The notes beneath the pieces were generated by a model. That model was not told where the DNA came from, made no database searches, and saw only the letters and a list, made by a program, of their open reading frames with translations. This document shows, in pieces, positions 3,546-39,473 of a DNA stretch of 64,000 nt. How positions within the stretch are numbered: position 1 is the stretch's first letter; the number at the start of each line of letters is the position of its first letter. Both the position numbers and the translations under genes were made by a program. Origin of the DNA: Nocardioides sp. L-11A (lineage in GTDB: Bacteria; Actinomycetota; Actinomycetes; Propionibacteriales; Nocardioidaceae); contig CP124680.1 of the NCBI GenBank assembly GCA_029961745.1, forward strand, positions 744,001-808,000, read 5' to 3'.

Positions 3546-5114
3546 TCAGGGGCGGCCGGGCGACGGGACGGCGCGCGCGTTGAAGAGGGTGCCTCCGACG
3601 ACCTCGCGGGAGTAGGGGTCGCGGTAGATGTCGGGCAGCACACCGCTGACGAGGTGGCCCAGCTCCTGGTGCCGGCGGGTGCGCGCGTCCGGTCGATAGA
3701 CCCGGGTGCGCAGGGCGGTGTCCAGCTCCGCCGCGAGAGCCGTCTCGTCGATGGTGGTCAGGACGCCGTCGTCCATCACGACCTGTCCGTTGATCAGCAC
3801 GGTGCGCAGATCGTGGCGTTGGGCGCGGTCGATCAGGATGTCGAGGAACGGGGTCGTGTCGTAGCGGCCCGCGGGCGCCGCGATGCGGGTGCGGTCGAGC
3901 ACGAGGAGATCGGCGAGCAGGCCCGGGGCGAGGCGCCCGAGCCGGCCGTCGTGGCGGACGGCTCGGGCACCGTTCTCGCCGGCGGCCCGCAGCAGCTGCT
4001 CGCTGTCGGCGCGCACGTGCTCGAAGTCGCGGGGGTCCCGATACAGGTACGACGCCAGGCGCAGCTCGGCGAACATGTCCTCGTCGTCGTTGAACGAGAT
4101 CCCGTCGGTGCCGAAGGCGACCCGGCCGCCGGCGGCCATGATGTCGCGGGTCCGGGCGATGCCGGCCGACAGCCGCAGGTTCGACCCGGGGTTGTTCGAC
4201 GCGACCGCCCCGCTGTCGGCGAAGATCCTCAGCTCCTCGTCGGTGACCCACACGAAGTGGGCGCAGACCATGTCGGGGCCGAGCACGCCGAGCCGGTGCA
4301 GTCGCTCGACGGCCGACATCCCGTAGCGGTCGTGGCTGAAGTGCATCTCGGACCGGGTCTCCAGCACGTGCGAGGTGATGCCGGTGTCGTACTCGTCGGC
4401 CAGGCGACGGCAGCGCAGGTAGAGCTCGTCGGAGCAGGCCGGCGTCCAGTCCGGGGCGAGCACGGTGCGGATCCGGCCGTCGTGCCCGTCCCAGGTGCGG
4501 GCCAGGTGCTCATAGGTGGCGAGCACCTCGTCGAGCGGCCACGCATAGCCCATCGGCGAGGCCCGGACCTCGGCCGCGAGCTCGGGAGGGAGGCGATCGA
4601 GGAAGCACTCGTCGGACTCGTGGGCGTAGATGTGCTGGTCGCGCGCGACCAGCCCGAAGGCCACCCGGAAGCCGGTGTCGGCGTAGGCCTGCAGCACGGG
4701 CTCGGTGCCGAACCGCGGCAGGGACGGCCGGCCGTAGTACATGTCGACCGCCGAGGTCTGCCCGCCGCGGATCATCGCGGCGATGGAGTGCTGGGCGATG
4801 AGGTAGAGATCGCGCTCCAGCGCCGGGCCGTAGCCGCCGTGCACGTGCACGTTCGCCTGTTCGAAGACGTACTGGTAGTGCCCGGGGCCGACCGAGAGCT
4901 CGGAGTGGAAGTGCCCGTTGACCAGGCCCGGCATCACGATGTGGTCCGGTCCGCCGATGACGCGGTCGAACGGCCCGCGGGCGGCGATCTCCGCACGCGG
5001 ACCGACGGCCTCGATGGTGGTGCCCGCCACGATGACCGCTCCGTCCTCGATGGTCGCGGTCCGGTCGAGTGTCACGACCGGATCACCCAGGACGAGAGTG
5101 CGCGGAGTGCCCAT
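3546..5114 (-). CDS. Amidohydrolase of the AtzA/SsnA (cytosine-deaminase-like) superfamily
   Basis: A 522-aa metal-dependent hydrolase, probably removing an amino or other group from an N-heterocycle. Metal-ligand motifs are visible: GLVNGHFHSELS (HxH), SHVLETRSEMHFS (His), MVCAHFVWVTDEE (His) and FGTDGISFNDDEDMFAE (Asp). The usual beta-sandwich segments flank the barrel (N-terminal VVTLDRTATIEDGAVIV and C-terminal GLLADLLVLDRT). ATG 5114 is chosen because a promoter placed at normal spacing would start transcription within 1 nt of it, implying a leaderless message. It is divergent from TenA-1 and shares its control region. A role in deaminating an aminopyrimidine is inference. Confidence 0.8.
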   Translation of the reverse strand: MGTPRTLVLGDPVVTLDRTATIEDGAVIVAGTTIEAVGPRAEIAARGPFDRVIGGPDHIVMPGLVNGHFHSELSVGPGHYQYVFEQANVHVHGGYGPALERDLYLIAQHSIAAMIRGGQTSAVDMYYGRPSLPRFGTEPVLQAYADTGFRVAFGLVARDQHIYAHESDECFLDRLPPELAAEVRASPMGYAWPLDEVLATYEHLARTWDGHDGRIRTVLAPDWTPACSDELYLRCRRLADEYDTGITSHVLETRSEMHFSHDRYGMSAVERLHRLGVLGPDMVCAHFVWVTDEELRIFADSGAVASNNPGSNLRLSAGIARTRDIMAAGGRVAFGTDGISFNDDEDMFAELRLASYLYRDPRDFEHVRADSEQLLRAAGENGARAVRHDGRLGRLAPGLLADLLVLDRTRIAAPAGRYDTTPFLDILIDRAQRHDLRTVLINGQVVMDDGVLTTIDETALAAELDTALRTRVYRPDARTRRHQELGHLVSGVLPDIYRDPYSREVVGGTLFNARAVPSPGRP

Positions 5115-5119
5115 ATCGC

Positions 5120-5150
5120 ATATCTGATGCGATTTTGGGCGGTGCGTCAA
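5120..5150 (-). promoter_or_regulatory. Leaderless promoter with overlapping operator core (site A1)
   Basis: On the minus strand, TTGACG (5150-5145) and TCAGAT (5127-5122) are separated by 17 nt. The predicted transcript starts at about 5115, next to the ATG at 5114, and there is no ribosome site. The -10 element lies inside GCATCAGATATGCG, which carries the ATNTCAGATNT-like core found at the other island promoters. A regulator bound here would cover the -10 box. Confidence 0.55.
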
Positions 5151-5167
5151 CCCTCTCCGCGAGACCG

Positions 5168-5217
5168 TTGACCTCCCCGAGGGGCACGGCTACTGTCATC
5201 TTATATCTGATATGCGA
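5168..5217 (+). promoter_or_regulatory. Promoter and operator core for TenA-1 (site A2)
   Basis: TTGACC (5168-5173) and TACTGT (5191-5196) are spaced 17 nt. The expected start is near 5203. The operator core ATATCTGATAT (5203-5213, complement ATATCAGATAT) begins exactly there and continues into GCGA. An AAAGG ribosome site follows at 5217-5221. Site A1 lies on the opposite promoter of this divergent pair, so both genes are probably controlled together. Confidence 0.6.
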
Positions 5218-5228
5218 AAGGTGACGAG

Positions 5229-5972
5229 ATGACCGCACAGGCGATCGACGTCGGTTTCAGCGAGGCCGCCCGGCGCGAGGTGGTGCAGGTGTGGGACACG
5301 CTGCCGGAGCACCCGTTCGTGCGAGGGATGGCGGACGGCTCGCTCCCGCCGCAGGTCTACCGGCACTACGTCACCCAGAACCTGCTCTATCTGCCGCACT
5401 ACGCACGCGCGATCGCGATGGCCGTCGCGAAGGCGCGCGACGACGACGAGCTGCGGCGCTACGCCGACGCCCTCGCCAATATCGTCGACGTCGAGATCCC
5501 GCAGAACCGGCGACTGCTGCATCGGGTTCGCGAGCTGTGCGAGGAGGGAAGCGGCCGCCGCGCCGATGGCTCGGATGACTCCGATGACTCCGATGACTCC
5601 GCCGTGATGGCCGCCGCGACGCGCAACTACACCTCCTATCTGCTCGGCGTCGCCGCGCGCTGTGACGTCGTGGCGATCGGCGCGGCGATCCTGCCCTGCG
5701 CGTGGAGCTACGGCGAGATCGCTCGGCGACATGCCTCCGGCGTGGTCGAGCATCCCGTGTACGCCGAGTGGTTCCGCTTCTTCGCCGCGCCGGAGTACGA
5801 CGCGCTGGTGGTCGGGATGCGAGAGCGTCTCGACGCCGACGTGGCGCCGCTGCCCCCGGTCGAGGTCCGGCGCCTGGCGCGCATCTTCGCCGACGCGACC
5901 AGGCTCGAGAGGGAGTTCTGGGACATGGCGATGGAGGCGGCCGGCCCCCGTTCGCCCGGGATTTCGGGGTAG
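5229..5972 (+). CDS. TenA-like protein 1 (thiaminase II family, altered pyrimidine site)
   Basis: A 247-aa TenA/THI-4 family helical protein. Members hydrolyse thiamine or amino-HMP-type pyrimidines. By alignment from memory to Bacillus TenA, the catalytic Cys135 (AILPCAWSYGEIA), Tyr47, Tyr112, Tyr139 and Glu205 (LEREFWDMA) are kept. Asp44, which contacts the pyrimidine amino group, is Asn here (TQNLLYL), and Tyr163 is Phe. It is closer to TenA-3 than to TenA-2: both share the NIVD.E.P.NR.LL.RV pattern. An acidic DDS tandem insertion sits near residue 115. The Asp to Asn change suggests a modified substrate, such as a 4-oxo instead of a 4-amino pyrimidine. Confidence 0.82.
   Translation: MTAQAIDVGFSEAARREVVQVWDTLPEHPFVRGMADGSLPPQVYRHYVTQNLLYLPHYARAIAMAVAKARDDDELRRYADALANIVDVEIPQNRRLLHRVRELCEEGSGRRADGSDDSDDSDDSAVMAAATRNYTSYLLGVAARCDVVAIGAAILPCAWSYGEIARRHASGVVEHPVYAEWFRFFAAPEYDALVVGMRERLDADVAPLPPVEVRRLARIFADATRLEREFWDMAMEAAGPRSPGISG
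5565..5600 (+). repeat. 9-bp in-frame tandem repeat in TenA-1
   Basis: Three perfect copies of GATGACTCC (5574-5600) follow one degenerate copy (GATGGCTCG, 5565-5573). They encode DGS then DDS three times in a surface loop before the Tyr112 helix. The unit length keeps frame, so copy number can vary without breaking the gene. Confidence 0.85.
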
Positions 5973-6015: not shown

Positions 6016-6028
6016 TCAGATCTCACAT
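6016..6028 (+). promoter_or_regulatory. Operator core upstream of the ABC operon (site B)
   Basis: TCAGATCTCACAT lies 17 nt before the ATG at 6046, just upstream of the ribosome site GGAG (about 6037). The 12 bases CAGATCTCACAT are identical to site C at 10356-10367. A weak promoter candidate is TAGTCA (5970-5975), 17 nt, TATGCT (5993-5998), which would start transcription about 10 nt upstream of this core. Confidence 0.55.
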
Positions 6029-6045: not shown

Positions 6046-6846
6046 ATGCGCTCACAAACCGGGAGCCAGCTCCCATCCGCAGAGAGCCGCTCGGGCGACG
6101 GCATCGATCTCGTGAACGTCGTGAAACGGTTCGGGGAGACCGTCGCCGTCTCCGGTGCCGACCTCTCCCTGCCTCGCCACGGTCGTATGTCGATCATCGG
6201 CCCCAGCGGCTGCGGGAAGTCGACGATCCTGTCGATGATCTCCGGCCTGCTCGACCCCACTGAAGGCGTGGTCCGGGTCGAGGGCGCGACGACGATGAAG
6301 GAGCGGCTCGCGCGGTGCGCGTGGATGCCGCAGCGTGACCTCCTCCTGCCCTGGCGCGATGTGGCGGGCAACGCGGCCCTCGCGCTGGAGAACCACGGGA
6401 TCTCCAAGAAGGAGGCCCGCGAGCGGGTGCTCGAGCTGATCGACCGGTTCGGTCTGTCCGGCTTCGAGCGGAGGTTCCCGCACCAGCTCTCGGGGGGCAT
6501 GCGTCAGCGGGTGTCGTTCCTGCGGACCATGGCGGCGGGCAAGGACGTGCTCCTGTTCGACGAGCCGTTCGGCGCGCTCGACTCCATCACCCGTGCGGAC
6601 CTCCAGCAATGGCTGCGCCGCACGCTCGACGAGGCGCCGCGCACGACGGTGCTGGTCACCCATGACGTCGAGGAGGCGCTGCTCCTGGGCGACACCGTCG
6701 TCGTGATGAGTGCGCGACCCGGCCGCATCGTGCAGACCGTGCAGGTGGAGCTTCCCCAGACGGAGAACCGGCGTGAGCTGATCCGTCACCCGGCCTTCGC
6801 CGAACTGCGCGACGAGCTCCTGTCGCTGCTGGAGGTGGCGGAATGA
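6046..6846 (+). CDS. ABC transporter ATP-binding protein (SsuB/ThiZ-like)
   Basis: A 266-aa cytoplasmic ATPase of a nitrate/sulfonate/pyrimidine-type importer. It has Walker A GPSGCGKST, signature LSGGMRQR, Walker B VLLFDEPFGALD and the switch His in VTHDVEEALLLGD. ATG 6046 is chosen because it has a GGAG ribosome site; the in-frame ATG at 6013 has none and overlaps the operator. It overlaps the permease gene by 4 bp (ATGA), and the binding protein and TenA-2 follow with the same overlap. The operon resembles thiXYZ-tenA arrangements, so it likely powers uptake of a thiamine-related pyrimidine. Confidence 0.9.
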   Translation: MRSQTGSQLPSAESRSGDGIDLVNVVKRFGETVAVSGADLSLPRHGRMSIIGPSGCGKSTILSMISGLLDPTEGVVRVEGATTMKERLARCAWMPQRDLLLPWRDVAGNAALALENHGISKKEARERVLELIDRFGLSGFERRFPHQLSGGMRQRVSFLRTMAAGKDVLLFDEPFGALDSITRADLQQWLRRTLDEAPRTTVLVTHDVEEALLLGDTVVVMSARPGRIVQTVQVELPQTENRRELIRHPAFAELRDELLSLLEVAE

Positions 6847-7691: not shown

Positions 7692-8716
7692 GGAATCTCA
7701 GCGTCCGCCGGAGGGCGACTCTTCTCGGGACCAGTCTGCTGCTCGCCGCCGGCATCATGACGGCGTGCGGCGACGACGGCGCCGGCTCGGGTGCCGACGG
7801 CAAGGTGAGCGTGCTGTTGGAGTGGTTCCCCAACCCCGACCACATCTCGCTCTACACCGCCCAGGACATGGGCGCCTTCGAGGACGAGGACCTGACCGTC
7901 AAGTTCCAGCCCCCGTCCAACAACACCGACTCGTTGAAGATGGTCAGCCTGGGACAGATGCCGCTGGCGATCTCCTACGCCAACGCGGTGATCAACGCCG
8001 AGGCCCAGGGGCTCGACGTCGTGGCCGTCGCGGCCCTGATCCCGACCACCCTCAACTCGCTGATCCTCAACCGCACCGACGACGTCCAGGAGATCGCGGA
8101 CCTCAAGGGCAAGCCGATCGGCTCCTCGGGCGACCCGGTGTCGGAGGCCATGTGGGCCTATGCGCTGAAGGAGAACGGCTTCAAGGACGAGGACATCAAG
8201 TTCGTCGCGATCAACCAGGGCTACTCGCCGGCGATGATCTCCGGCCAGGTCAGCGCGATCATCGGTGCGTACCCCAACATCGAGAGCGTCGAGCTCAAGG
8301 AGAACGGGCTCGACCCGGTCTCGTACGCCGTCGGCGACGTCGGCGTGCCGACCTACGACGAGCTCGTGCTCATCGCCAATCGCTCCAAGCTGGCGAAGGA
8401 CAAGGACTATCAGGACGTCGTCAAGCGGTTCCTGGCCGGCGCCGCGAAGGGTGCCGCCCGGGCGCAGGAGGACCACGCGGCGGCTCTCGACGCGATCAAG
8501 CCGGTCGCCAAGGGCTACAGCGAGGAGAGCCTGCGCGACATGGTCGACCTGACCGCGCCGCTGCTGGAGAACCCGGACGGCTTCGGCCAGATGGACGTCG
8601 CCGAGTGGCAGGCGCTGGCCGACTGGCTGCTCGCGAACGGGCAGCTGGACAAGGAGGTCGACGCGGCCGTCGTGGTCAACACCGACTTCCTTCCGGAGGG
8701 CGGTGACGCGCAATGA
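7688..8716 (+). CDS. THI5/NMT1-like substrate-binding lipoprotein (ThiY-like)
   Basis: A 342-aa extracytoplasmic binding protein. The signal peptide starts MRNLSVRRRATLLGTSLLLA and ends in a lipobox with Cys near residue 24 (GIMTACG), so it is lipid-anchored. The mature start VLLEWFPNPDHISLYTAQD followed by PPSNNTDSLKMVSLGQMPLAISY matches the NMT1/THI5 family, whose ThiY members bind formylaminopyrimidine or HMP. The ATG overlaps the permease stop. The pairing with TenA downstream makes an aminopyrimidine ligand likely, but related proteins bind sulfonates or riboflavin. Confidence 0.87.
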   Translation: MRNLSVRRRATLLGTSLLLAAGIMTACGDDGAGSGADGKVSVLLEWFPNPDHISLYTAQDMGAFEDEDLTVKFQPPSNNTDSLKMVSLGQMPLAISYANAVINAEAQGLDVVAVAALIPTTLNSLILNRTDDVQEIADLKGKPIGSSGDPVSEAMWAYALKENGFKDEDIKFVAINQGYSPAMISGQVSAIIGAYPNIESVELKENGLDPVSYAVGDVGVPTYDELVLIANRSKLAKDKDYQDVVKRFLAGAAKGAARAQEDHAAALDAIKPVAKGYSEESLRDMVDLTAPLLENPDGFGQMDVAEWQALADWLLANGQLDKEVDAAVVVNTDFLPEGGDAQ

Positions 8717-9411
8717 CGGTCCAGCTCGCCCAGCGTCGACGCCAGGGCTGGACGGGTGAGCTGTGGGACGCGATCGAGCCCACCCATCTGCGGATCCTCG
8801 AGCACCCGTTCATCACCGGCCTGACGACGGGGGAGCTGGCGCCCGACGCGTTCCTCCGCTTCCTCGCCCAGGACACCTACTACGTCAACGAGTACGCCCG
8901 CTCGCTGGCGGCCCTCAGCTCGACCGCGCCGACGATGGCACTGACCCGCTCGCTGCTCGAGCACGCGTCGGGCGCGGTCGCCGCGGAGTCGACCCTGCAT
9001 GCCGAGCTGGTCGCGATGCTGGGTGGGCCCCCCGACCTCCTCGCGCGGGTGGTGCCGAGTCCCACCGCGGCGGCGTACGTCGACTTCGTGACCGCGCGCG
9101 TGCACACGGGGTCCTTCTTCACCGGGCTGGCGGCCGTGCTGCCGTGCATGTGGGTCTACGCCGAGGTGGGTGTGCACCTCGTGGCGAGCGGCTCCTCGGA
9201 CCCGGCGTACCAGCGCTGGATCGACAACTACGCGGGCTCCGGCTATCTCGAGGAGGTCGACCGGATCCTCGACGACGTCGATGCGTTGGCCCAGGTCGTC
9301 GGCGGCGAGGAGCGGGCGCGAGCGGCCGAGGTCGCACTGACGGCGACGCGCTACGAGTGGATGTTCTGGGACGCGGCCTACGCCGGGGAGCAGTGGCCCT
9401 CGCTGCCCTGA
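8713..9411 (+). CDS. tenA: TenA family protein 2 (thiaminase II, canonical site)
   Basis: A 232-aa TenA protein, coupled to the binding-protein gene by a 4-bp ATGA overlap. All TenA active-site positions appear conserved by alignment from memory: Asp44 and Tyr47 (AQDTYYV), Tyr112 (TAAAYVDF), Cys135 and Tyr139 (VLPCMWVY), Tyr163 (WIDNYAG) and Glu205 (YEWMFWDAAY). Such enzymes cleave thiamine or release HMP from aminomethyl-pyrimidine. As the last gene of the import operon it probably acts on the imported compound first. It is the most orthodox of the three TenA copies here. Confidence 0.9.
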   Translation: MTVQLAQRRRQGWTGELWDAIEPTHLRILEHPFITGLTTGELAPDAFLRFLAQDTYYVNEYARSLAALSSTAPTMALTRSLLEHASGAVAAESTLHAELVAMLGGPPDLLARVVPSPTAAAYVDFVTARVHTGSFFTGLAAVLPCMWVYAEVGVHLVASGSSDPAYQRWIDNYAGSGYLEEVDRILDDVDALAQVVGGEERARAAEVALTATRYEWMFWDAAYAGEQWPSLP

Positions 9412-9503: not shown

Positions 9504-10175
9504 ATGGGCGTGGACGACCAGGGTCGACTGGAGCACATGCAGCTGAAGGACCGCGTCTACCACCACCTGCGTGACGGCATCATCGACGGCACCTACGACG
9601 TGGGCGTCGCGTTGCGCGAGGTGGAGATCGCGCAGCGCCTCGGCGTCAGCAAGACCCCCGTCCGCGAGGCCTTCGTCCGACTCGAGAAGGATCGCCTGGT
9701 CGAGCTGATCCCGTATCGCGGTGCCGTGGTCGCCGGCTACACCGCCGCCGACCTCGAGGAGATCTCCCAGGTCCGCCAGCTCGTCGAGGGTGCGTGTGCG
9801 CGATCCGCGGCTCGGCACGCGACCGAGAAGGACGTCGCCGAGATCGAGCGCAACGTGGAGCTGTCGCGCGAGGCCCTGGGCAAGGGCCGGGTCGAGCGGG
9901 TGGCCCAGCTCCTCGACGCCTTCGACCAGCTCATGTACCGGCACTCCCGCAACAAGTGGCTCGACGAGCTCGTCGAGAACCTCGAGGGACACCAGCGCCG
10001 CATCGGACGGCTGACCGTCGACATCCCCGGCCGGCTCGAGAAGTCGGTCGAGCAGCACCAGCGGATCCTCGACGCGATCCGCAACCGCGACGAGCGTCGC
10101 GCCGAGCGCGCGATGCAGGCGCACATCGCCAGCGTCATGGACGACCGGTTGAAGGCGTTCGTCAGCGCCTCCTGA
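9504..10175 (+). CDS. GntR/FCD regulator, paralogue 1 (candidate island repressor)
   Basis: A 223-aa regulator with a GntR winged helix (LGVSKTPVREAFVRLEKDR, about residues 48-66) and an FCD domain (about 80-210). It is a full-length paralogue of the regulator at 34255: they share LIPYRGAVVAGY, GHQRRIGRLTV and IPGR. It follows the ABC-TenA operon by 92 bp and has no clear copy of the shared operator in its own leader. It, or its paralogue, is the best candidate to bind the TCAGATCTCA sites. The ligand is unknown. Confidence 0.88.
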   Translation: MGVDDQGRLEHMQLKDRVYHHLRDGIIDGTYDVGVALREVEIAQRLGVSKTPVREAFVRLEKDRLVELIPYRGAVVAGYTAADLEEISQVRQLVEGACARSAARHATEKDVAEIERNVELSREALGKGRVERVAQLLDAFDQLMYRHSRNKWLDELVENLEGHQRRIGRLTVDIPGRLEKSVEQHQRILDAIRNRDERRAERAMQAHIASVMDDRLKAFVSAS

Positions 10176-10413: not shown

Positions 10414-11421
10414 GTGATCATCGACGCCCACACCCACATCCTCGGCCTGGCGGCCGATCCCGAGTTCACCGCGCGGTACGGACGCGAGGGCGCCCTGTGC
10501 ATCTACCGGTCCCGCGGGCAGCTGCCCAGCCACCGGATGCCGACCGAGGCCGAGTACGGCGCCTGCGGGCTGGCGCACGACGGCTTCCTGGAGATCGGCC
10601 CCGAGGAGTCGATCGCCGCGCACCCCGGGTTCGATCGGATCGTGCTGCTGGCGATGTCGCCGCAGTACCTCGACGGCCGATTGATCGGCACCGTCGACAA
10701 CCTCGGCGTCACCTCGGTCGCCGGCCCGCCGTCACCGGAGAAGTGCAACGACTACATCGCCGACCTGCAGGCCCAGCACCCGGACGTGTTCATCGGCTTC
10801 GGCTCGGTCAACCCCAACCATCGGGGTGTCAAGGCGGCCGTCGCCGAGCTCGAGAGGTCCGTCCTCGAGCTCGGCCTCCAGGGCCTGAAGCTGTACCCGA
10901 TGTACCAGCACTGGTCACCGGCCGACCCGATCCTCTCCTTCCCGATCTTCGAGAAGGCGGCCGAGCTCGACATCCCGGTGCTGGTGCACCAGGCGGGCTC
11001 CACGCGCGTCGACGCGCGGATGGACTTCGCCCGTCCGGCACTGCTCGACGACGTCGGCCGTCACTTCCCCGGCGTGCGTCTCCTGATCGCTCACTGCGGG
11101 ACGCCATGGGTCGAGGAGGCGATGTTCATGTGCACGAAGCACCCGAACTTCTTCGCCGAGCTCAGCTATCACGTCTCCACCGTGACCTCGGAGGAGCTGT
11201 ACCGGTGGCTGCTGCACCTGGAGCAGATGTTCGTCCCGCTGGAGAAGGTCGTCTTCGGATCGGATCATCCCGGCTTCACCTATGACCCGGTGCTGCTGCG
11301 GGACAAGGTGCTGGGCGTCAACGAGATCGCCCGCCGCCTGGACATGCCGGAGATCCCGCAGGCGAAGCTCGACGGGATCCTGGGCGACAACTTCGCGCGC
11401 ATCATGCGGCTGGTCGGCTGA
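10414..11421 (+). CDS. Amidohydrolase family 2 (ACMSD-like) hydrolase or decarboxylase
   Basis: A 335-aa TIM-barrel metalloenzyme with GTG start. Metal-site motifs are IIDAHTHI (HxH at residues 5-7), VLVHQAGS (His), LLIAHCGTPWVEE (His) and FGSDHPG (Asp). The family includes ACMSD, gamma-resorcylate decarboxylase and ring-fission product hydrolases, so either decarboxylation or hydrolysis is possible. It is first in a tight operon with TenA-3, an FAD oxidase, an aldehyde dehydrogenase and a VOC protein, under operator site C. It probably processes a ring-derived intermediate. Confidence 0.82.
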   Translation: MIIDAHTHILGLAADPEFTARYGREGALCIYRSRGQLPSHRMPTEAEYGACGLAHDGFLEIGPEESIAAHPGFDRIVLLAMSPQYLDGRLIGTVDNLGVTSVAGPPSPEKCNDYIADLQAQHPDVFIGFGSVNPNHRGVKAAVAELERSVLELGLQGLKLYPMYQHWSPADPILSFPIFEKAAELDIPVLVHQAGSTRVDARMDFARPALLDDVGRHFPGVRLLIAHCGTPWVEEAMFMCTKHPNFFAELSYHVSTVTSEELYRWLLHLEQMFVPLEKVVFGSDHPGFTYDPVLLRDKVLGVNEIARRLDMPEIPQAKLDGILGDNFARIMRLVG

Positions 11422-11478: not shown

Positions 11479-12171
11479 ATGACGACGTCGACCGCCCGAT
11501 GGCTGCGGGCATCGTGCCCGGAGATCTGGAGCTCGCTGCACGGGCATCCGTTCCTGGGTGACATGGCCGCCGGCACGCTGAGCCTGGAGCGCTTCCGGTT
11601 CTACCTCGAGCAGGACACCATGTACCTGACCGAGTACGCCAAGTGCATGGCCCTGGGCGCCGCGCGGGCTCGCTCGGTCGACGAGGTCGCCTGGCTGCGC
11701 GACTCGATGGACAACATCGTGGACAACGAGCTGCCCCGGAACCGGGAGCTGCTCCAGCGTGTGGTCGACCTCGGCGCCGCGGACCGCGGCGGGTCGCGGG
11801 GGATGGCGCCGACGACGCTGGCCTACACCTCGTTCCTCACCTCGACCGCCTACCGCGGCGACGCCCTCGACGTGATGACGGTGATCCTCCCGTGCGCGGT
11901 GAGCTATCGGGAGATCGCCCTGGAGCTCGTCGACCGGATCGCACCCGACTCGCTCTACACCGCCTGGATGGACTTCTTCGTCGGCGACTTCTACGGCGCC
12001 CGGCTGGACCGGATGCAGGCGAACCTCGACGAGCTCGCCGACCGGGCCGATCCGCGCCGCCGGGAGTCGCTGCGGGAGGCGTTCGCCACCGCCAGCCGCC
12101 TGGAGGTCGCGTTCTGGGACATGGCCTACGACTGCCGGCAGTGGCCGGACCTCGCGGTGGCGACCGACTGA
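11479..12171 (+). CDS. TenA-like protein 3
   Basis: A 230-aa TenA/THI-4 family protein. Asp44 and Tyr47 (EQDTMYL), Tyr112 (LAYTSF), Cys135 (ILPCAVSY), Tyr139 and Glu205 (LEVAFWDMAY) are kept by alignment from memory. Tyr163 is Phe (WMDFFVG), as in TenA-1. It shares the DNIVDNELPRNRELLQRV helix pattern with TenA-1, so those two form one subtype apart from TenA-2. ATG start with GGGAG upstream. It lies between the ACMSD-like enzyme and the FAD oxidase. Confidence 0.85.
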   Translation: MTTSTARWLRASCPEIWSSLHGHPFLGDMAAGTLSLERFRFYLEQDTMYLTEYAKCMALGAARARSVDEVAWLRDSMDNIVDNELPRNRELLQRVVDLGAADRGGSRGMAPTTLAYTSFLTSTAYRGDALDVMTVILPCAVSYREIALELVDRIAPDSLYTAWMDFFVGDFYGARLDRMQANLDELADRADPRRRESLREAFATASRLEVAFWDMAYDCRQWPDLAVATD

Positions 12172-17683: not shown

Positions 17684-17757
17684 CGGCCTCCGCCCCCAGA
17701 GTCTCGGTCCTGTCACCGGAACAGTACGGCACCGGGCGAGCGGTGCGCACCCCTCCA

Positions 17758-17879
17758 ACTAACTATTTATGTGTTCAGTTAGTACTTCCCAGACGTCTGA
17801 CCGTGAGTTAGTGTCCCGTTCCACAGCGAGAAGGTGTCCTTCGATGGACGCCAGCATCTGCTGTTCAGACGTTCAGTTA
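17758..17879. promoter_or_regulatory. Candidate TetR operator region
   Basis: ACTAACT (17758-17764) and AGTTAGT (17777-17783) form an inverted repeat with a 12-nt spacer in AT-rich DNA. CAGACGTCTG (17790-17799) is a perfect 10-bp palindrome. GTTCAGTTA occurs twice, at 17773-17781 and 17871-17879. The region separates the divergent TetR (17683) and MBL (17948) genes. No other gene is seen in the 264-bp gap. Confidence 0.45.
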
Positions 17880-18739: not shown

Positions 18740-18772
18740 CCGACGTCCGAGCGAGCTACCTGGGAGCATGAC

Positions 18773-32177: not shown

Positions 32178-32196
32178 CCTCGAAAGGACGGAACAA

Positions 32197-33201
32197 ATGC
32201 TCAGTGGTGTCGCTCTTCAGCCGGTGGACCCGCCCCGGGAGTTCGAGGACGCGGTCGAGGAGATCGAACGGGCGGGGTTCGACGAGCTCTGGCTGACCGA
32301 CTCCTCGCTGCACGCACGTAACGTCTACGCCTACCTGACGCTCGCCGCGCGGCGCAGCGTCACGCTGCGACTGGGCACCGCGGTGACCAACCCGGTGACC
32401 CGGCATCCCGCGGTGACGGCGACCGCCGCCGCGACCATCGACGAGATCAGTGACGGCCGCTTCTCGCTGGGGATCGGCGCCGGCGACCGACCGCTCCTGG
32501 CCCTGGGGTCCAAGCCGGCGACGCTCGCGCGCCTGGAGTCGTCCATCGGCGCGATCCGTCAGCTCTGGACCGGTGAGCACGTGACGCTCGAGGGTGCGGG
32601 CTTCAGCCTCGACGATGCCCACATGCGGGTCGCCGCCGACCGGGAGATCCCGATCTACATCTCCTGCAGCGGTCCCAAGACGCTGGAGCTCGCCGGCCGC
32701 GTGGCCGACGGAGTCATCCTGCTGGCGGGCCTGCACCCCGAGGGACTGCAGTGGGCGCTCGACCACATCGACCGGGGCGTCGACGCCGCCGGGCGCTCGG
32801 AGCGACCGAAGATCACCGTGTTCGCCTACGGTGCCGTCGACGAGGACGAGGAGGCGGCGCTGGCCGCCGGCCGGACCATCGCGGCCTGGTTCCCGCAGAC
32901 GGCCCCGGGCTACTGCGAGATGGCCGGCCTGTCGCGGGAGCTGATCGACAAGGTCCGCACGATGTACGTCGGTGGCGAGTTCCAGGAGGCGGAGGAGGCC
33001 GCGCGCCTGCTTCCGGACGAGTTCGTACACCGGATGGCCCTCGCCGGCGGTCAGGATCGCGCCCGCGCCCACGTCGAGAACATGCTCGACCTCGGGATCG
33101 ACTGCATCACGGTCTTCCCGCTCGGGGAGGACCGATTCGCGACGATGCGCAACTTCAAGGGGGTCTTCGACCAGGTCGTGGGCGGGACCCGTGTCTCCTG
33201 A
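32197..33201 (+). CDS. LLM-class flavin-dependent oxidoreductase
   Basis: A 334-aa luciferase-like TIM-barrel protein using FMN or F420. The N-terminus GVALQPVDPPREFEDAVEE, the LRLGTAVTNPVTRHPAVTA strand, the ISDGRFSLGIGAGD loop and IYISCSGPKTLELAGRVADG are typical; overall it resembles F420-linked reductases of the MER type. ATG start with AAAGGA upstream. RutA, which opens the uracil ring, is in the same superfamily, so a ring monooxygenase role is possible but unproven. An 11-bp overlap joins it to the next gene. Confidence 0.85.
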   Translation: MLSGVALQPVDPPREFEDAVEEIERAGFDELWLTDSSLHARNVYAYLTLAARRSVTLRLGTAVTNPVTRHPAVTATAAATIDEISDGRFSLGIGAGDRPLLALGSKPATLARLESSIGAIRQLWTGEHVTLEGAGFSLDDAHMRVAADREIPIYISCSGPKTLELAGRVADGVILLAGLHPEGLQWALDHIDRGVDAAGRSERPKITVFAYGAVDEDEEAALAAGRTIAAWFPQTAPGYCEMAGLSRELIDKVRTMYVGGEFQEAEEAARLLPDEFVHRMALAGGQDRARAHVENMLDLGIDCITVFPLGEDRFATMRNFKGVFDQVVGGTRVS

Positions 33202-34174
33202 CCTGGTCCCCGACCGCACCCTCGCGACCGTCCTGGACCAGTGCCTGGCCGTCCGGAGGCGGGAGGAGGTGGTGCTCCTCGTCGACGAGGAGACCGATCC
33301 CCTCGTGGTCGAGGCCCTGGTGGGGGGCCTCGACCACCGTGGCTGCATCGCGGTGGTGGCGCGGATGCCGCGCTACGCCGTCCCGGGGAGCGAGCCTCCC
33401 GAAGCGGTCGCCCGGATCCTCGACGGGGCCTCGGCGGCGATCGAGCTGACGTCGACGTTCATCGGGTCCAGTCGGGCCCGGCAGCAGGCGACGGCAGGCG
33501 GCACCCGCTACCTGTGCATGCCGGGGGTCGTGGCCGACACCTTCCGCCTGGGCGGTCCTCTGGACGTCGACTTCGACGAGCTGCGCTCGGTCACCGAGCG
33601 CCTGGCCGAGGCGTGGGCCGCGGCCGACACCTACCGGTTGACGACCCCCGCGGGGACCGACCTCCGCGGCTCGGTGCGGGGCCGGGGCGGACGTGCGCTC
33701 TACGGGATCGCCCGGGAGCCGGGTGCCTACATGTGCCCGCCGGACGTCGAGTCGGGCACCGCGCCGGTGGAGGGCAGCTCGACGGGGGTCGTGGTCGTCG
33801 ACGCGGACTTCCTCTTCATGGGCCGCGGGCCGGTCGCCCGGCCGGTGGCGCTCCACGTCGAGAACGGCGCGCTGCGCCGGGTCGAGGGTGCCGAGGGCGA
33901 GCGGCTGACGGCGATGATCGAGCGGTGCGCGGACGGCCGGATGGAGAACCTGGCCGAGGTCTCGCTCGGCCTGAACCCCAACGGTCGGGTCTGCGGCGTC
34001 CCGATGGAGACCGAGTCGACGCTGGGGAGCGCGCATGTCGCGTTCGGCAACTCGATCGCCTACGGCGGGACCGTGGACGCACCGGCGCACCTGGACTGCG
34101 TGATGCAGCGCGCGACGCTGGAGCTCGACGGTCGGCCGGTGATGGTCGAGGGTGTGCCGGTGGCCGACAAGTAG
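33191..34174 (+). CDS. M29 aminopeptidase-like / 2,5-dihydroxypyridine dioxygenase (NicX)-like protein
   Basis: A 327-aa protein, GTG start, overlapping the LLM gene. The C-terminal metal region is conserved: NLAEVSLGLNPN (Glu), LGSAHVAFGNSIAYGG (His) and APAHLDCVM (HxD). This His plus HxD arrangement is shared by M29 aminopeptidases and by NicX, an iron enzyme that cleaves the pyridine ring. The length fits NicX (about 350 aa) better than M29 enzymes (about 400). Beside a molybdenum hydroxylase and an LLM protein, ring cleavage is attractive, but peptidase activity cannot be excluded from sequence. Confidence 0.65.
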   Translation: MSPDLVPDRTLATVLDQCLAVRRREEVVLLVDEETDPLVVEALVGGLDHRGCIAVVARMPRYAVPGSEPPEAVARILDGASAAIELTSTFIGSSRARQQATAGGTRYLCMPGVVADTFRLGGPLDVDFDELRSVTERLAEAWAAADTYRLTTPAGTDLRGSVRGRGGRALYGIAREPGAYMCPPDVESGTAPVEGSSTGVVVVDADFLFMGRGPVARPVALHVENGALRRVEGAEGERLTAMIERCADGRMENLAEVSLGLNPNGRVCGVPMETESTLGSAHVAFGNSIAYGGTVDAPAHLDCVMQRATLELDGRPVMVEGVPVADK

Positions 34175-34254: not shown

Positions 34255-34935
34255 ATGAGCACGACTGAACGGGTGGGCGGGGAGCTGCGCCACCTCCAGC
34301 TGAAGGACCGGGTGTACGAGCACCTCCGCAACGCGATCATCGACGGGGACCACGCCATCGGCGCGGCCCTGCGGGAGGTCGACATCTCGACGTCCCTGGG
34401 AGTCAGCAAGACCCCGGTGCGCGAGGCCTTCGTCCGCCTGCAGAAGGACCGCTTCGTCGAGCTGATCCCCTACCGCGGCGCTGTCGTGGCCGGCTACAGC
34501 AAGCGGGATCTCCGCGAGATGTACGAGGTGCGCGAGCTGCTCGAGGGGCGCTGTGCCGCGCGGGCCGCCGAGGTCGAGGACGACCGGGTGCGCGCCGACC
34601 TCCAGCGCAACGTCGAGGAGACCCGTCGTGCTGTCGAGGAGGATCGGCTCGAGAAGGTCATCGAGCTCTTCGAGAACTTCGACCGCCTGGTCTATTCCGC
34701 GTCCGACAACAAGTGGATCAACGACATCATCCACGACCTCGACGGACACCAGCGGCGGATCGGTCGGCTCACTGTGGGCATCCCGGGGCGGATCGAGCAT
34801 TCCCTGAGCGAGCACGAGAAGATCTGCGCCGCCATCGTGAAGCGCGACGCCGCCGCGGCCGAGAAGCGGATGCGCGCCCATGTGCGGTCGGTCATGACCG
34901 ACCAGTTGCGGAGCTTCCGCGCCGAGGAGGCCTGA
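34255..34935 (+). CDS. GntR/FCD regulator, paralogue 2
   Basis: A 226-aa regulator, closely related over its whole length to the one at 9504. The winged helix contains LGVSKTPVREAFVRLQKDR and the FCD domain contains DNKWINDIIHDLDGHQRR. ATG 34255 is chosen because AGGAGGT lies 8 nt before it; a GTG at 34213 would add 14 residues and lacks a ribosome site. The leader carries site E, so it probably regulates itself. With its paralogue it brackets the operator-bearing operons. Confidence 0.88.
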   Translation: MSTTERVGGELRHLQLKDRVYEHLRNAIIDGDHAIGAALREVDISTSLGVSKTPVREAFVRLQKDRFVELIPYRGAVVAGYSKRDLREMYEVRELLEGRCAARAAEVEDDRVRADLQRNVEETRRAVEEDRLEKVIELFENFDRLVYSASDNKWINDIIHDLDGHQRRIGRLTVGIPGRIEHSLSEHEKICAAIVKRDAAAAEKRMRAHVRSVMTDQLRSFRAEEA

Positions 34936-35065: not shown

Positions 35066-35125
35066 TTGACGCAGATCACATGGCCCACCTAAGGTGGATG
35101 TCAGATCTCAGATATTACATGTGAG
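35066..35125 (+). promoter_or_regulatory. Promoter and operator of the 35 kb operon (site F)
   Basis: TTGACG (35066-35071) and TAAGGT (35090-35095) are 18 nt apart. The expected start is near 35102, on the operator core ATGTCAGATCTCA (35098-35110). A second half, TGTGAG (35120-35125), faces it and ends in the ribosome site GAGGA. The ATG follows at 35134. Confidence 0.65.
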
Positions 35126-35133
35126 GATGCGCC

Positions 35134-36609
35134 ATGGTTGCACTGCTCGAGTCAGTAGAGGCCTTCTCGTCCCGAGAGCACGGGCTCTTCATCGGGGGAG
35201 AGTTCGTCGCGTCGCGCGGAAGTGAACGCATCGATGTGCACGACCCGGCGACGGGACGGCTGCTGACCACCGTCGCCTCGGCCAACGCCGAGGACGTCGA
35301 CGCGGCCGTCGCCGCCGCGCGCGCCGCGCTGCCGGCGTGGGCCGCGCTGCCGGCCGCCCAGCGCGGCGAGCTGCTGTGGCGGCTCGGCGCGCGCCTGGAG
35401 GAGCTCGCCGAGGAGTTCGCCCAGCTCGAGGCCATCGACAACGGCAAGCCGACCTCGGAGTCGCTGGCTGTCGACGTACCGCTGACGGCAGGGCTGTTCA
35501 AGTACTACGCGGGTGCGGTGAGCCGGATCGAGGGGCGCACGATCGCGCCCATGGGTGGTGCGAACTTCCATGTCTACACCCGGCGCGAGCCCGTCGGCGT
35601 CGTCGGTGCCATCATCCCGTGGAACTTCCCGCTGCTCATGTGCGGCTACAAGCTGGGGCCGTCGCTGGCCGCGGGCAACACCGTCGTGCTCAAGCCCGCG
35701 GAGCAGACGCCGCTCGCGGCGTTGCGGCTGGCCGAGGTGCTCGCGGAGGTCGGCTTCCCGCCCGGCGTGGTCAACATCGTGACCGGCCTCGGCCCCTCGG
35801 CCGGCGCCCCCCTGGCCGCGCACGGCGACGTCGACAAGGTCACCTTCACCGGCGAGACCTCCACCGGCCAGAAGATCATGGAGGCCGCGAAGGGCAACAT
35901 GAAGAAGGTGTCGCTGGAGCTCGGCGGCAAGTCGCCGAGCCTGGTGTTCGCCGACGCCGACCTCGATGCGGCCGTCGAGGGCACCTTCGGCGCGGTCTTC
36001 TTCAACCAGGGCCAGTGCTGCATCGCCGGCGCGCGCGTCTACGTCCACGACGACATCTACGACGAGTTCACGAAGCGGCTGGTCGAGCGGGTTGCGGAGG
36101 TGCGCCTGGGATCGGGCCTCGAGCCCGGGACGACGATGGGGCCGCTCGTGAGCGAGGAGCAGCAGGCGCGGGTCAACGGCTACATCAGGTCCGGCCTGGA
36201 GGAGGGCGCGAGCATCGCGTCGGACGCCGGCTCGGCGGTTCCCGAGGTCGGCAACTTCGTCCGGCCCACCGTCTTCACCGACGTCCGCCCCGACATGCGG
36301 ATCATGCGGGAGGAGATCTTCGGCCCGGTCGCGATGGTCGGCAGGTTCGCCACCGAGGAGGAGGCGGTCGCGGCGGCCAACGACACGTCGTACGGTCTCT
36401 GCTCGGGCGTCTGGACCCGCGACGTGGCGCGGGTGCACCGGATCGCCGCCGCGATCCACGCAGGCACCGTGTACGCCAACACCTACGGCTACTTCGACCC
36501 GGCCGTTCCCTTCGGGGGCTTCAAGATGAGCGGCTTCGGCAAGGAGCTCGGCGAGGAGGCCCTCGACCACTACCTCCAGACCAAGACGGTCTGGGTCAAC
36601 CTCGACTGA
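35134..36609 (+). CDS. NAD(P)-dependent aldehyde dehydrogenase
   Basis: A 491-aa ALDH of the ALDH1/2-like group. Motifs are IPWNFPLLMCGYKLGPSLA (Asn), SLELGGKSPSLVF (general base) and FNQGQCCIAGARV (catalytic Cys). It is the first gene under operator site F and is followed by an alcohol dehydrogenase and an amidohydrolase. It could oxidise the aldehyde made from a hydroxymethyl or hydroxyethyl side chain. It is not especially close to the ALDH at 13448 (GQCC versus GQDC). Confidence 0.9.
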   Translation: MVALLESVEAFSSREHGLFIGGEFVASRGSERIDVHDPATGRLLTTVASANAEDVDAAVAAARAALPAWAALPAAQRGELLWRLGARLEELAEEFAQLEAIDNGKPTSESLAVDVPLTAGLFKYYAGAVSRIEGRTIAPMGGANFHVYTRREPVGVVGAIIPWNFPLLMCGYKLGPSLAAGNTVVLKPAEQTPLAALRLAEVLAEVGFPPGVVNIVTGLGPSAGAPLAAHGDVDKVTFTGETSTGQKIMEAAKGNMKKVSLELGGKSPSLVFADADLDAAVEGTFGAVFFNQGQCCIAGARVYVHDDIYDEFTKRLVERVAEVRLGSGLEPGTTMGPLVSEEQQARVNGYIRSGLEEGASIASDAGSAVPEVGNFVRPTVFTDVRPDMRIMREEIFGPVAMVGRFATEEEAVAAANDTSYGLCSGVWTRDVARVHRIAAAIHAGTVYANTYGYFDPAVPFGGFKMSGFGKELGEEALDHYLQTKTVWVNLD

Positions 36610-37658: not shown

Positions 37659-37695
37659 GAGACACCCCCGAACCCCACACCCCTAGGAGGCTCCG

Positions 37696-39000
37696 ATGAG
37701 CAGAATCGTCCTCAACGGCGGCACCGTCCTCACCATGGACGACGACCTGTCCGTGCACCCCGAGGGCCACGTCGTCATCGAGCAGGACCGCATCGTCCAG
37801 GTGGGCGCGGGCGACGCGCCGACCGGTCCCGGCGACGTCGTGCTCGACACGTCCGGTCAGCTGGTGATGCCCGGCCTGGTCGATCTGCACTACCACACGG
37901 CGATCGGCAAGGGATACAGCGATCATCTGCCGTTGTGGGAGTACCTCGATACCTGCTGGTACCCCCTGATCCGCAACCTCGACGAGGAGGCTGCCTACTG
38001 GGCAGCGGCCGCCAGCTACATGGAGTCGATCCGGTCCGGTGTGACCACCGTCAACGACATGTACCGGCGGCTGCCCGACCTCGCCCGCGCCGCGCGCGAC
38101 ATCGGCATCCGGGCGGTGCTCTCCAACGACGTCGCCCTCGACGAGCACGACCTGGACACGCTGGAGGACAACCTCACCGCTCACCGCGAGGTCCACGGCT
38201 GGGGCGACGGGAGGATCGAGGTGTACGTCGGGATCGAGTGGCTCCCGCTCGCCGACCCGGGCCTGCTGCGCGACGCCCGGGCGCTGGCCGACCAGCTGGG
38301 CACCGGCATCCACGTCCACCTCAACGAGTCGCTCACCGAGGTCCAGGACAGCGTCAAGCGCTTCGGCAAGCGCCCGACGGAGGTGGCCTACGAGGCGGGC
38401 CTGCTCGGACCCGACTGCATCGCCGCCCACTGCGTGTGGCTGTCCGACGTGGAGATCGCGCTGATGCGCGAGACCGGGACGCACATCTCCCACAACCCCA
38501 GCTCGAACGCCAAGCTGGGCAACGGGATCGCCCGACTGCCGGAGATGCTCGCTGCCGGCATCAACGTCGGCCTGGGCCACGACGCGGCCGAGTGCAACAA
38601 CAGCCGGGATCCGTTCGAGGTGATGAAGTTCGCCTCGCTCATGCACCGCGCCGCGCGCGTCGACCCCAGCCTCCAGCAGGCGCCCGACGTCGTCCGGATG
38701 GCGACACGGAACGGCGCGGACGCGCTCAAGCACGACACGGGCCGGCTGGCCGTGGGCCGCAAGGCCGACGTGATCACGCTCGACCTCCGCAACGAGATGT
38801 TCACGCCGTTGATCCACGGCGACCCCGACCACCTCTACTCCCACCTGGTCTTCAGCGCCAACGGGAGCTGCGTCGACTCCAGCATCATCGACGGCCAGAT
38901 CGTGATGCGGGAGCGACGACTGCTGAACCTGGACCAGGAGGAGGTCCTGGCGAAGGCCAACGAGGCGTTCCTCCGCGTCCTGGACCGCATCCGGTCATGA
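37696..39000 (+). CDS. Amidohydrolase, AtzA/TrzN/SAH-deaminase-like
   Basis: A 434-aa metal-dependent hydrolase. Metal motifs are GLVDLHYHT (HxH), GIHVHLNES (His), IAAHCVWLSD (His) and LGHDAAECNNS (Asp). The Glu that polarises the substrate in deaminases is in HLNES. These enzymes remove amino, chloro or similar groups from N-heterocycles such as adenine-like, triazine or pyrimidine rings. It is a distant homologue of the enzyme at 3546. ATG with AGGAGG upstream. Deamination of an aminopyrimidine is a plausible role. Confidence 0.86.
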   Translation: MSRIVLNGGTVLTMDDDLSVHPEGHVVIEQDRIVQVGAGDAPTGPGDVVLDTSGQLVMPGLVDLHYHTAIGKGYSDHLPLWEYLDTCWYPLIRNLDEEAAYWAAAASYMESIRSGVTTVNDMYRRLPDLARAARDIGIRAVLSNDVALDEHDLDTLEDNLTAHREVHGWGDGRIEVYVGIEWLPLADPGLLRDARALADQLGTGIHVHLNESLTEVQDSVKRFGKRPTEVAYEAGLLGPDCIAAHCVWLSDVEIALMRETGTHISHNPSSNAKLGNGIARLPEMLAAGINVGLGHDAAECNNSRDPFEVMKFASLMHRAARVDPSLQQAPDVVRMATRNGADALKHDTGRLAVGRKADVITLDLRNEMFTPLIHGDPDHLYSHLVFSANGSCVDSSIIDGQIVMRERRLLNLDQEEVLAKANEAFLRVLDRIRS

Positions 39001-39473
39001 CCGCCGTCGCGGGCGGTCACGGGAGCCGGTCGACCACGCAACCCTGGCGCGACGACCTGGATCCCGACGTGCTCGTGACGGCGGTGGGCTGGTGCCTCGG
39101 TGAGGTGCTCGAGCTCGCGGACTGGGAGGAGCTGGCGCGCATCACGGGGACGACCGCATGGATCTGCGGCCATCCGCGGCTCCTCAGCTCACTCGCGTTC
39201 GGCGAGCCCGACTACACCGAGCACGTCCGCGCCGCCGTCCCGGTGGTGCTCGGAGATCGCCTCACCGAGCACGAGGCGAGCACCGCGCGTGCGGCCGAGG
39301 ACGCCGACCCCGCGGTGGGGGATCGCTTCCCCCACCTCGGGACGGTCGCCGGATTCGTCGGTCTCCGGGAGTGGCTGGCGTTGCGTGACCCCGAGCTGTT
39401 CGCCCGGCTCTACGCGCCGACGGTGGGATTCGCCTGGGAGGTCGGCCGAGCCACTGCTCCTGCGGTGGGCTGA
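38997..39473 (+). CDS. Unrecognised protein, last gene of the island
   Basis: A 158-aa predicted soluble protein coupled to the amidohydrolase by a 4-bp ATGA overlap. It is helical and acidic, with WEELARITGTTAWICGHP near residue 45 and FVGLREWLALRDPELFARLY near the C-terminus. There is no membrane segment, signal or metal cluster. The coupling suggests a partner or processing role for the amidohydrolase. I do not recognise the family. Confidence 0.65.
   Translation: MTAVAGGHGSRSTTQPWRDDLDPDVLVTAVGWCLGEVLELADWEELARITGTTAWICGHPRLLSSLAFGEPDYTEHVRAAVPVVLGDRLTEHEASTARAAEDADPAVGDRFPHLGTVAGFVGLREWLALRDPELFARLYAPTVGFAWEVGRATAPAVG

Follow-up and report, generated by a model that had tools for sequence, protein, structure and literature searches.

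The closest described systems to the locus presented here are those that salvage or split thiamine. Salvage of base-degraded thiamine uses TenA, YlmB and ThiXYZ, with TenA under a riboswitch, as described in part of PMC5627462. The words 'unique thiamine degradation pathway' are used in PMC4475313, in passages that concern thiaminase I and a thiazole kinase. Among the matches listed from the open-access literature, with subscription papers not covered, no gene cluster for thiamine-pyrimidine breakdown was found. Here we describe an island of 36 kb in Nocardioides sp. L-11A, within positions 744,001-808,000 of its complete, single-contig 5.68-Mb genome; this whole stretch of 64,000 nucleotides is called the window, and coordinates refer to it unless a genome position is stated. 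The genes of the island probably form a regulon devoted to breaking down thiamine or the vitamin's pyrimidine half, hydroxymethylpyrimidine (HMP). Thiamine is in short supply in soil and water, where it is traded as a vitamin; should this reading be correct, Actinomycetota possess a conserved regulon that takes out vitamin B1 or the HMP moiety on which many auxotrophs rely.

The island is marked out by its operators. The pattern TCAGATMTNNNAT has six sites in the 5.68-Mb genome, all of them within the island, and the reversed-pattern control has none. The pattern was derived from island sites, so that the six sites themselves are not independent evidence, and it is the absence of the pattern elsewhere in the genome that counts. 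Two of the sites stand before the amidohydrolase AmH1 and TenA1, one before the ABC importer genes, one before AmH2 and two before the aldehyde dehydrogenase ALDH2, while a seventh, shorter site precedes the hydrolase M20a. The word TCAGATMT occurs seven times in the window against 0.94 expected, and none of 100 shuffles reaches seven. The half-site ATCTCACAT, with one mismatch allowed, is not enriched (6 against 4.59 expected, a count of 6 being reached in 31 of 100 shuffles). To judge from these sites, the island is one regulon under shared, island-specific operators, and two paralogous GntR/FCD proteins encoded in it are the likely binders. The features are as follows.

3546..5114, minus strand: AmH1, TRZ/ATZ-type amidohydrolase (aminohydrolase) of type I clusters; PF01979, best NCBIfam model 5'-deoxyadenosine deaminase, below cut-off
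5115..5228, no strand assigned: divergent promoter with two operators TCAGATAT (5115-5127 and 5198-5210); motif scan
5229..5972, plus strand: TenA1, with Asn at the Asp44 position and Cys135, Tyr139 and Glu205 retained; PF03070, TIGR04306 135.1 bits (cut-off 130)
6016..6028, plus strand: operator TCAGATCTCACAT upstream of the ABC ATPase gene; motif scan
6046..6846, plus strand: ABC ATPase (ThiZ-like), start at 6046 or 6013; PF00005
6843..7691, plus strand: ABC permease (ThiX-like); PF00528
7688..8716, plus strand: NMT1/THI5 binding protein (ThiY-like); PF09084, best solved relative 3ix1, E 7.6e-37
8713..9411, plus strand: TenA2, Asp44 retained; PF03070, TIGR04306 129.3 bits, slightly under cut-off
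9504..10175, plus strand: GntR/FCD regulator, paralogue of that at 34255-34935 (57% over 213 aa); PF00392 and PF07729
10355..10367, plus strand: operator TCAGATCTCACAT before AmH2; motif scan
10414..11421, plus strand: AmH2, ACMSD-type Amidohydro_2 enzyme with the HxH, His, His, Asp set; PF04909, alignment
11479..12171, plus strand: TenA3, Asp44 retained; TIGR04306 143.1 bits
12222..13451, plus strand: FAD-linked alcohol oxidase; FAD_binding_4 and ALO
13448..14881, plus strand: aldehyde dehydrogenase ALDH1; PF00171
14874..15305, plus strand: methylmalonyl-CoA-epimerase-like VOC protein (open reading frame from 14829); TIGR03081 E 9.6e-26, below cut-off
15302..16978, minus strand: acyl-CoA ligase; PF00501/PF13193
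17021..17680, minus strand: TetR regulator of the Nocardioides-only block; PF00440
17834..18739, plus strand: metallo-beta-lactamase (MBL)-fold hydrolase MBL1, lactonase-like; PF00753, AiiA and 4-pyridoxolactonase models below cut-off
18773..19594, plus strand: rhodanese; PF00581
19591..19965, plus strand: RidA-family protein (open reading frame from 19543); PF01042
19974..20597, plus strand: CoxG-like protein; PF06240
20597..21469, plus strand: molybdenum hydroxylase FAD subunit; PF00941/PF03450
21466..21954, plus strand: molybdenum hydroxylase 2Fe-2S subunit; PF01799/PF00111
21951..24251, plus strand: molybdenum hydroxylase large subunit; PF02738/PF20256/PF01315
24248..25633, plus strand: MBL-rhodanese fusion of persulfide-dioxygenase type; family scans
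25630..26505, plus strand: TauE/SafE exporter; PF01925
26605..26612, plus strand: short operator TCAGATCT upstream of M20a; motif scan
26663..27871, plus strand: M20a, amidohydrolase (ArgE/DapE type), start revised to 26663; PF01546
27868..28299, plus strand: B12-binding mutase small subunit; PF02310, TIGR00640 117.2 bits
28289..29881, plus strand: B12 acyl-CoA mutase large subunit, distinct subfamily; PF01642
29875..31041, plus strand: class III CoA-transferase; PF02515
31038..32177, plus strand: M20b, amidohydrolase; PF01546
32197..33201, plus strand: luciferase-like (LLM) flavoprotein, nearest F420-dependent Mer; structure-relative and NCBIfam scores
33191..34174, plus strand: NicX/M29-fold metalloenzyme; fold match, alignments
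34255..34935, plus strand: GntR/FCD regulator; family scan
35101..35120, plus strand: two overlapping operators TCAGATCTCAGAT and TCAGATATTACAT; motif scan
35134..36609, plus strand: ALDH2; PF00171
36639..37658, plus strand: Zn alcohol dehydrogenase (ADH); PF08240/PF00107
37696..39000, plus strand: AmH3, core TRZ/ATZ-type aminohydrolase; PF01979, best solved relative 4f0r, a 5-methylthioadenosine/S-adenosylhomocysteine deaminase

Gene families were called by Pfam and NCBIfam scans, with alternative reading frames compared by Pfam. The gene list of the preliminary description, three TenA genes together with the other families it named, was borne out by these scans; the FAD, 2Fe-2S and molybdopterin subunits of a molybdenum hydroxylase (xanthine dehydrogenase family) were all found. 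Two genes are added to that list, for the epimerase-like VOC protein, which overlaps the end of ALDH1, and for the RidA protein, which overlaps the rhodanese gene. The genes form four tight runs (6046-9411, 12222-15305, 18773-26505 and 26663-34174), with overlaps of 1-11 bases or spacing of at most 19 bases, and the only three TenA genes of the whole 5.68-Mb genome lie inside the island. A match to AbiJ_NTD5 (E 5.6e-8) in the open reading frame 37935-39473 was rejected as spurious, being out of frame with the real gene. Just beyond, fatty-acid-desaturase-type and ferredoxin-reductase-type proteins are encoded on the minus strand at 39498-41969, and these are still neighbours of the island in N. 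carbamazepini and LHD-245.

A search for AmH2, using patterns from three sequences, over a collection of 84,980 species gave 33 loci, in Actinomycetota and in a few metagenome-assembled genomes (MAGs) labelled only 'bacterium' or Dormibacterota. Twenty-two related genomes were tabulated more widely, G014 and G008 having come first from a TenA search and G217 from a NicX search. Matches were accepted at half length and E 1e-10, a cut-off that paralogues near 30% identity also pass, so that only high identities are read as orthologues; contig ends make gene absences in MAGs weak. Among the 22 genomes, AmH3 was found in 21, AmH2 in 21 (by construction, the loci having been selected with AmH2), LLM in 21, the NicX-fold protein in 20 and M20a in 19, usually accompanied by TenA, ALDH and the importer. 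This pyrimidine core of five genes recurs across many Actinomycetota genera. Scattering of the operons in relatives had been named beforehand as grounds for refutation; the check, run for the core, found that the core stays together, and the proposal of a single catabolic unit is supported by this conservation and by the island-specific shared operators. In 13 of the 22 relatives, including Frankia, Parafrankia, Nakamurella, Herbiconiux and Microbacterium, the clusters also contain TCAGATMT words, the expected counts taking account of base composition only.

Closer at hand, protein identity to the same-genus genome G014 is mostly 82-97%, and a TenA2 probe matched only G014 and G008 among 36 same-genus relatives. 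A NicX-fold probe over 396 genomes of the phylum gave E below 1e-100 in two (one being the genome itself) and below 1e-40 in 15; among the AmH2-bearing genomes it gave E below 1e-60 in 18 of 22. In G217, the other of those two genomes, M20a, the B12 subunit, the mutase, the CoA-transferase, M20b and LLM adjoin the NicX-fold gene. Homologues at 65% or more, among the matches listed, come from Streptomyces, Streptosporangium and Dactylosporangium entries for both the NicX-fold protein and the mutase, with Micromonospora entries for the former and Ilumatobacteraceae entries for the latter.

The clusters end in two ways. In type I, found in 15 of the 22 genomes, the core is joined by the mutase, CoA-transferase and M20b, with the B12 subunit found in 13. 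The epimerase-like gene is present in 10 of the 22, all of them type I. Type II comprises six genomes (Nakamurella, Demequina, two Herbiconiux, Microbacterium and N. mangrovi), whose clusters carry an aminotransferase (PF00155), an NtaA-type monooxygenase (TIGR03860) and a GMC oxidase, these families having been scanned for one representative each. Mutase, CoA-transferase, M20b and B12 subunit were not found in the type II stretches searched, and the type II aminotransferase was not found in the other 16 genomes. Outside type II, the GMC oxidase appears only in two Frankia-type clusters (53%), and the NtaA-type gene has a 33% match in Frankia G458; in the fragmented MAG G459, neither ending was found. 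It is worth adding that a further LLM-like protein of about 358 aa, perhaps sulfur-related, occurs in four of the six type II clusters (N. mangrovi L038 7721-8797, Herbiconiux and Nakamurella) at 63-100% identity.

The gene content suggests the following route. The ThiY-type ABC importer would take up the pyrimidine compound, and an aminohydrolase, AmH3 or AmH1, would replace its 4-amino group by oxygen. The TenA with Asn at position 44 would then cleave the 4-oxo compound, while the Asp44 TenAs would cleave thiamine or aminomethylpyrimidine itself. ADH (the GMC oxidase in relatives) and ALDH2 would lead to the pyrimidine-5-carboxylate, the LLM enzyme, of F420H2 type, would reduce the C5=C6 bond, AmH2 and the NicX/M29-fold enzyme would open the ring and remove the amidine nitrogen, and M20a would remove acetate. 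Because C4 and the 5-carboxylate are both attached to C5 in 2-methyl-4-oxopyrimidine-5-carboxylate, reduction and hydrolysis should on chemical grounds give a malonate bearing CH2-N, that is, aminomethylmalonate. Rearrangement of its CoA ester in the manner of methylmalonyl-CoA mutase (MCM) would yield the aspartate skeleton. The enzymes that this requires are a CoA-transferase, an epimerase and a B12 mutase, which would carry out the conversion in type I, with M20b stripping an N-acyl group before or after the rearrangement, and in type II the aminotransferase would replace the mutase ending. Both endings would fit one amine-bearing intermediate that is open to transamination and whose CoA ester, having an epimerisable carbon, could be rearranged by the B12 mutase.

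The aspartate ending is offered tentatively. The same caution, if anything more of it, applies to the whole scheme of a B12- and F420-dependent vitamin B1 route, in which deamination comes first and the Asn44 TenA, as an 'oxythiaminase', commits the substrate irreversibly. Reduction and ring opening would then lead to aminomethylmalonate; aspartate would be formed by a new B12 mutase, served by a CoA-transferase and an epimerase of its own and converting aminomethylmalonyl-CoA, or the N-acylated ester, to aspartyl-CoA, and in a second lineage the aminotransferase would take the place of the mutase. With such a mutase, the short list of reactions catalysed by B12 acyl-CoA mutases would gain a new member.

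The reading of the LLM and NicX-like proteins named in the preliminary description is revised. The LLM protein is present and kept in the core, and it looks F420-type rather than RutA-type: its nearest solved relative is Mer (150 bits), and a relationship to RutA (27 bits) was set aside as weak. None of the 25 NCBIfam models shown gives it a score over cut-off. As for the cofactor, CofH is over cut-off in 9 of 12 genomes and CofE was found in all six tested, and in Demequina salsinemoris the genes fgd1, cofE and cofD adjoin the cluster (L115 1-3557; G462:C20:318000-321556). The protein at 33191..34174 does have the fold of NicX, the 2,5-dihydroxypyridine 5,6-dioxygenase (7cn3), whose iron ligands we take to be His265, His318 and Asp320. 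His318 and Asp320 are kept, and His265 is replaced by Glu in all 48 aligned homologues (of 120 listed and 933 in total); because of this changed ligand, the case for a ring-cleaving dioxygenase is weakened.

The preliminary description had both halves of a thiamine-like compound imported, cleaved and catabolised. The pyrimidine half is well supported, and the thiazole half is much less secure. The FAD oxidase, CoxG, the FAD and 2Fe-2S subunits of the molybdenum hydroxylase, the MBL-rhodanese fusion and TauE were found in five of the 22 relatives, all Nocardioides, in which the molybdenum large subunit is 86-96% identical; the CoA ligase, TetR and MBL1 have orthologues in four of them, the fifth being a fragmented MAG. 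The block, which comprises the FAD oxidase with ALDH1, the CoA ligase, the molybdenum hydroxylase, the lactonase-like MBL, the persulfide dioxygenase-rhodanese and TauE, is best interpreted as a thiazole branch, a reading that we regard as nearly evenly balanced. Such a branch would oxidise the alcohol to the acid, hydroxylate C2, open the ring, oxidise the persulfide and export sulfite. A competing reading, in our view rather unlikely, is that two unrelated units adjoin in the 36 kb, one for a pyrimidine and one, running from CoA ligase to TauE, for a sulfur heterocycle or an aromatic acid, independent of the first and with no tie to thiazole. The second unit has its own TetR, the shared operators were not found at the TetR/MBL/molybdenum promoters in the window motif scan, and its being found in Nocardioides clusters only fits independence. 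So does the 58% homologue of the large subunit on another contig of MAG G459, whose neighbours do not look thiamine-like by eye; it was set aside as support for the block for the same reason. Against two separate units, the FAD oxidase and ALDH1 genes lie directly downstream of TenA3 (within 50 bases), overlap by 4 bases and are downstream of the operator in front of AmH2, the block adjoins the pyrimidine core in the four relatives with long contigs, and N. caldifontis has a further ABC-TenA cassette between its TetR and MBL genes.

That cassette (G455, at about 30-33 kb of the joined stretch L104) carries a TenA2-like protein of 40% identity with Asp44 kept. Between MBL1 and the rhodanese, G014, G453 and G454 have extra unmatched open reading frames with the look of a further importer, e.g. 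406, 293 and 357 aa in G453 and 293 aa in all three, together with an ABC ATPase-like match; they are absent at 18740-18772 of the window. Between TetR and MBL1 (17681-17833), words like AACTAAC...GTTAGT are seen by eye and form a possible TetR operator.

For the pyrimidine half, the link to thiamine drawn earlier is strong. In TenA, Cys135, Glu205 and Tyr139 are catalytic and Asp44 lies in the pyrimidine pocket. TenA1 and TenA3 pass the cut-off of the thiaminase II model TIGR04306, TenA2 being just under it, and the three catalytic residues are present in all three proteins. In TenA1 the Asp44 position is Asn, as it is in 118 of its best 120 homologues (of 131), all 120 of which keep Cys, Tyr and Glu. 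The clusters and their surroundings gave 38 TenA matches, of which 18 have Asn44 and 19 Asp44, with one cut there, and Cys135 and Tyr139 are kept in all 38; an Asn44 TenA was found in 16 of the 22 relatives as well as in the window. Control TenAs from outside such clusters (23 alignable of 24 loci) have Asp44 in every case and Asn in none, with Cys (18) or Val (5) at position 135. Thymidylate synthase discriminates between 4-oxo and 4-amino pyrimidines by an Asn/Asp pair at its base-recognition site, and by this analogy the Asn clade is predicted to act on a deaminated pyrimidine, which would place deamination before cleavage. If so, Asn44 would be a signature by which catabolic and salvage TenA can be told apart in genomes and metagenomes. 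The binding protein's best solved relative, 3ix1, is the formylaminopyrimidine (FAMP)-binding protein, the other five listed being one ABC binding protein and THI5/THI13.

The Asn replacing Asp44 in a conserved TenA could instead mean that the island degrades another 4-aminopyrimidine or N-heterocycle (a thiamine antivitamin, a drug-like pyrimidine or another natural product), with ThiY- and TenA-type proteins recruited and thiamine not the natural substrate. Two further facts point this way: no TenA match was found near the core in the stretches searched of Parafrankia G457 and MAG G456, so that thiamine itself need not be the substrate there, and the binding proteins of type II clusters share no more than 25-29% identity with that of the window. 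We consider this explanation improbable, since TenA2 and TenA3 keep all catalytic residues checked, TenA3 is over the thiaminase II cut-off, and among solved proteins the binding protein is closest to one that binds a thiamine pyrimidine.

The mutase branch, noted earlier as an outlet to CoA metabolism, is present, and its placement is changed to the pyrimidine core, as it recurs with the core in 15 of 22 genomes. Both the PF01642 large subunit and the B12-binding subunit were found. In MCM, Arg207 is the carboxylate ligand and Phe287 lies beside the migrating group; Ile90 and Asp117 are the residues that characterise HcmA. The island protein has Arg at the Arg207 position, as do 15 of 15 orthologues, and Tyr or Phe at the Tyr89 position throughout this set. 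At the Phe287 position there is His in all 16 and in all 24 aligned homologues (of 120 listed), the HTN stretch of MCM is HVM, and the positions of HcmA Ile90 and Asp117 hold Tyr/Phe and Ala. These residues would most simply suit a substrate that has a free carboxylate as well as a polar side group.

It might be argued that the mutase, CoA-transferase and epimerase lie here by chance, being enzymes of general propionate/methylmalonate or branched-acid metabolism. The top score of the mutase against solved relatives is with 2-hydroxyisobutyryl-CoA mutase HcmA (4r3u, 514 bits), followed by human MCM (449 bits), and it has many homologues (6377 of the candidates scored, at E 1e-150). Chance placement is still quite improbable: a separate and higher-scoring MCM (775.6 bits) is encoded at genome position 4,189,453, the island mutase lies between M20a and LLM in a run of overlapping genes, M20a, CoA-transferase, M20b or LLM accompany it in 15 genomes, and the conserved Arg comes together with an invariant His in place of Phe287. 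PF01642 is matched five times in the genome, once by the island mutase and four times elsewhere, with two of these four adjacent (genome positions 4,189,453 and 4,191,321).

No Rfam match, and hence no thiamine pyrophosphate (TPP) riboswitch, was found in the window; elsewhere in the genome TPP riboswitch matches lie at 5.06 Mb (65.3 bits, over cut-off) and 4.38 Mb (52.5 bits, below the 54.3 cut-off), and ThiC is at 4.376 Mb, outside the island. For these two reasons a salvage role is unlikely, in line with the preliminary description. That the island salvages base-degraded thiamine (ThiXYZ importer, YlmB-type deacylase and TenA), with unrelated genes alongside, is very improbable, for although its importer, TenAs and M20 hydrolases resemble the parts of that pathway, as given in part of PMC5627462, its regulators are GntR and TetR proteins, ThiD and ThiE families had no match among the island genes scanned except the TenA part of a fused model, the conserved deaminase, oxidation, ring-opening and mutase core would be superfluous for salvage, and the genome has its own ThiC.

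The reading of the island as a regulon for thiamine or HMP catabolism must be weighed against several points. The substrate is predicted from gene content, as are the reaction order, the N-acyl state and the product of the aspartate scheme, and TenA and ThiY families also serve HMP salvage. ThiC was found in only four of 12 cluster-bearing genomes; the other eight, some of them drafts, may be thiamine-pyrimidine auxotrophs, and it is odd that presumed auxotrophs should carry pyrimidine-destroying genes. TCAGATMT words were not found in the clusters of nine of the 22 relatives, Demequina included. Among the 12 genomes searched for CofH, Demequina gave no match, and Herbiconiux oxytropis and Microbacterium gave only matches below cut-off. 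The low identity of the type II binding proteins and the cores with no TenA match nearby, described above, belong here too, as does the nearest score of the mutase, to HcmA. The epimerase-like protein (90.8 bits over the full TIGR03081 model, cut-off 114.95) is a relative and not an equivalog, was not found in five of the 15 mutase genomes, and lies here in the TenA3/ALO/ALDH1 run, outside the mutase run. Lastly, isoorotate-like decarboxylases are a candidate model for AmH2, whose residues do not discriminate; a decarboxylating AmH2 would leave the mutase without a dicarboxylate and would break the aminomethylmalonate scheme.

Set beside known systems, the proposed route follows the logic of the reductive uracil pathway, in which ring reduction, hydrolytic opening and N-acyl removal lead to an amine product; that pathway has its own families (dihydropyrimidine dehydrogenase and dihydropyrimidinase) and no CoA or B12 step. 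The island mutase, like HcmA and MCM, has a large subunit and a separate B12-binding subunit, and it differs from HcmA in not keeping Ile90 and Asp117 and from MCM in combining Arg207 with His for Phe287. With the salvage of base-degraded thiamine in bacilli, the island shares a ThiY-type binding protein and ABC importer, TenA and an M20-type hydrolase, YlmB being an M20-type enzyme; it differs in having island-specific operators where no TPP riboswitch match was found in the window, and it has in addition the deaminases, ALDH, LLM, NicX-fold protein, CoA-transferase, B12 mutase and the conserved TenA with Asn for Asp44. Thiaminase I systems also split thiamine into pyrimidine and thiazole, with one cleaving enzyme, and the passages concerned in PMC4475313 and PMC5627462 do not describe onward breakdown of the pyrimidine ring. 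The riboflavin/lumichrome clusters of Microbacterium and Nocardioides, as covered in part of PMC12746152, are likewise aerobic actinobacterial clusters that degrade a B vitamin with a pyrimidine ring; their enzymes and substrate are different, and no TenA, ThiY or B12 mutase is named in that part of the paper.

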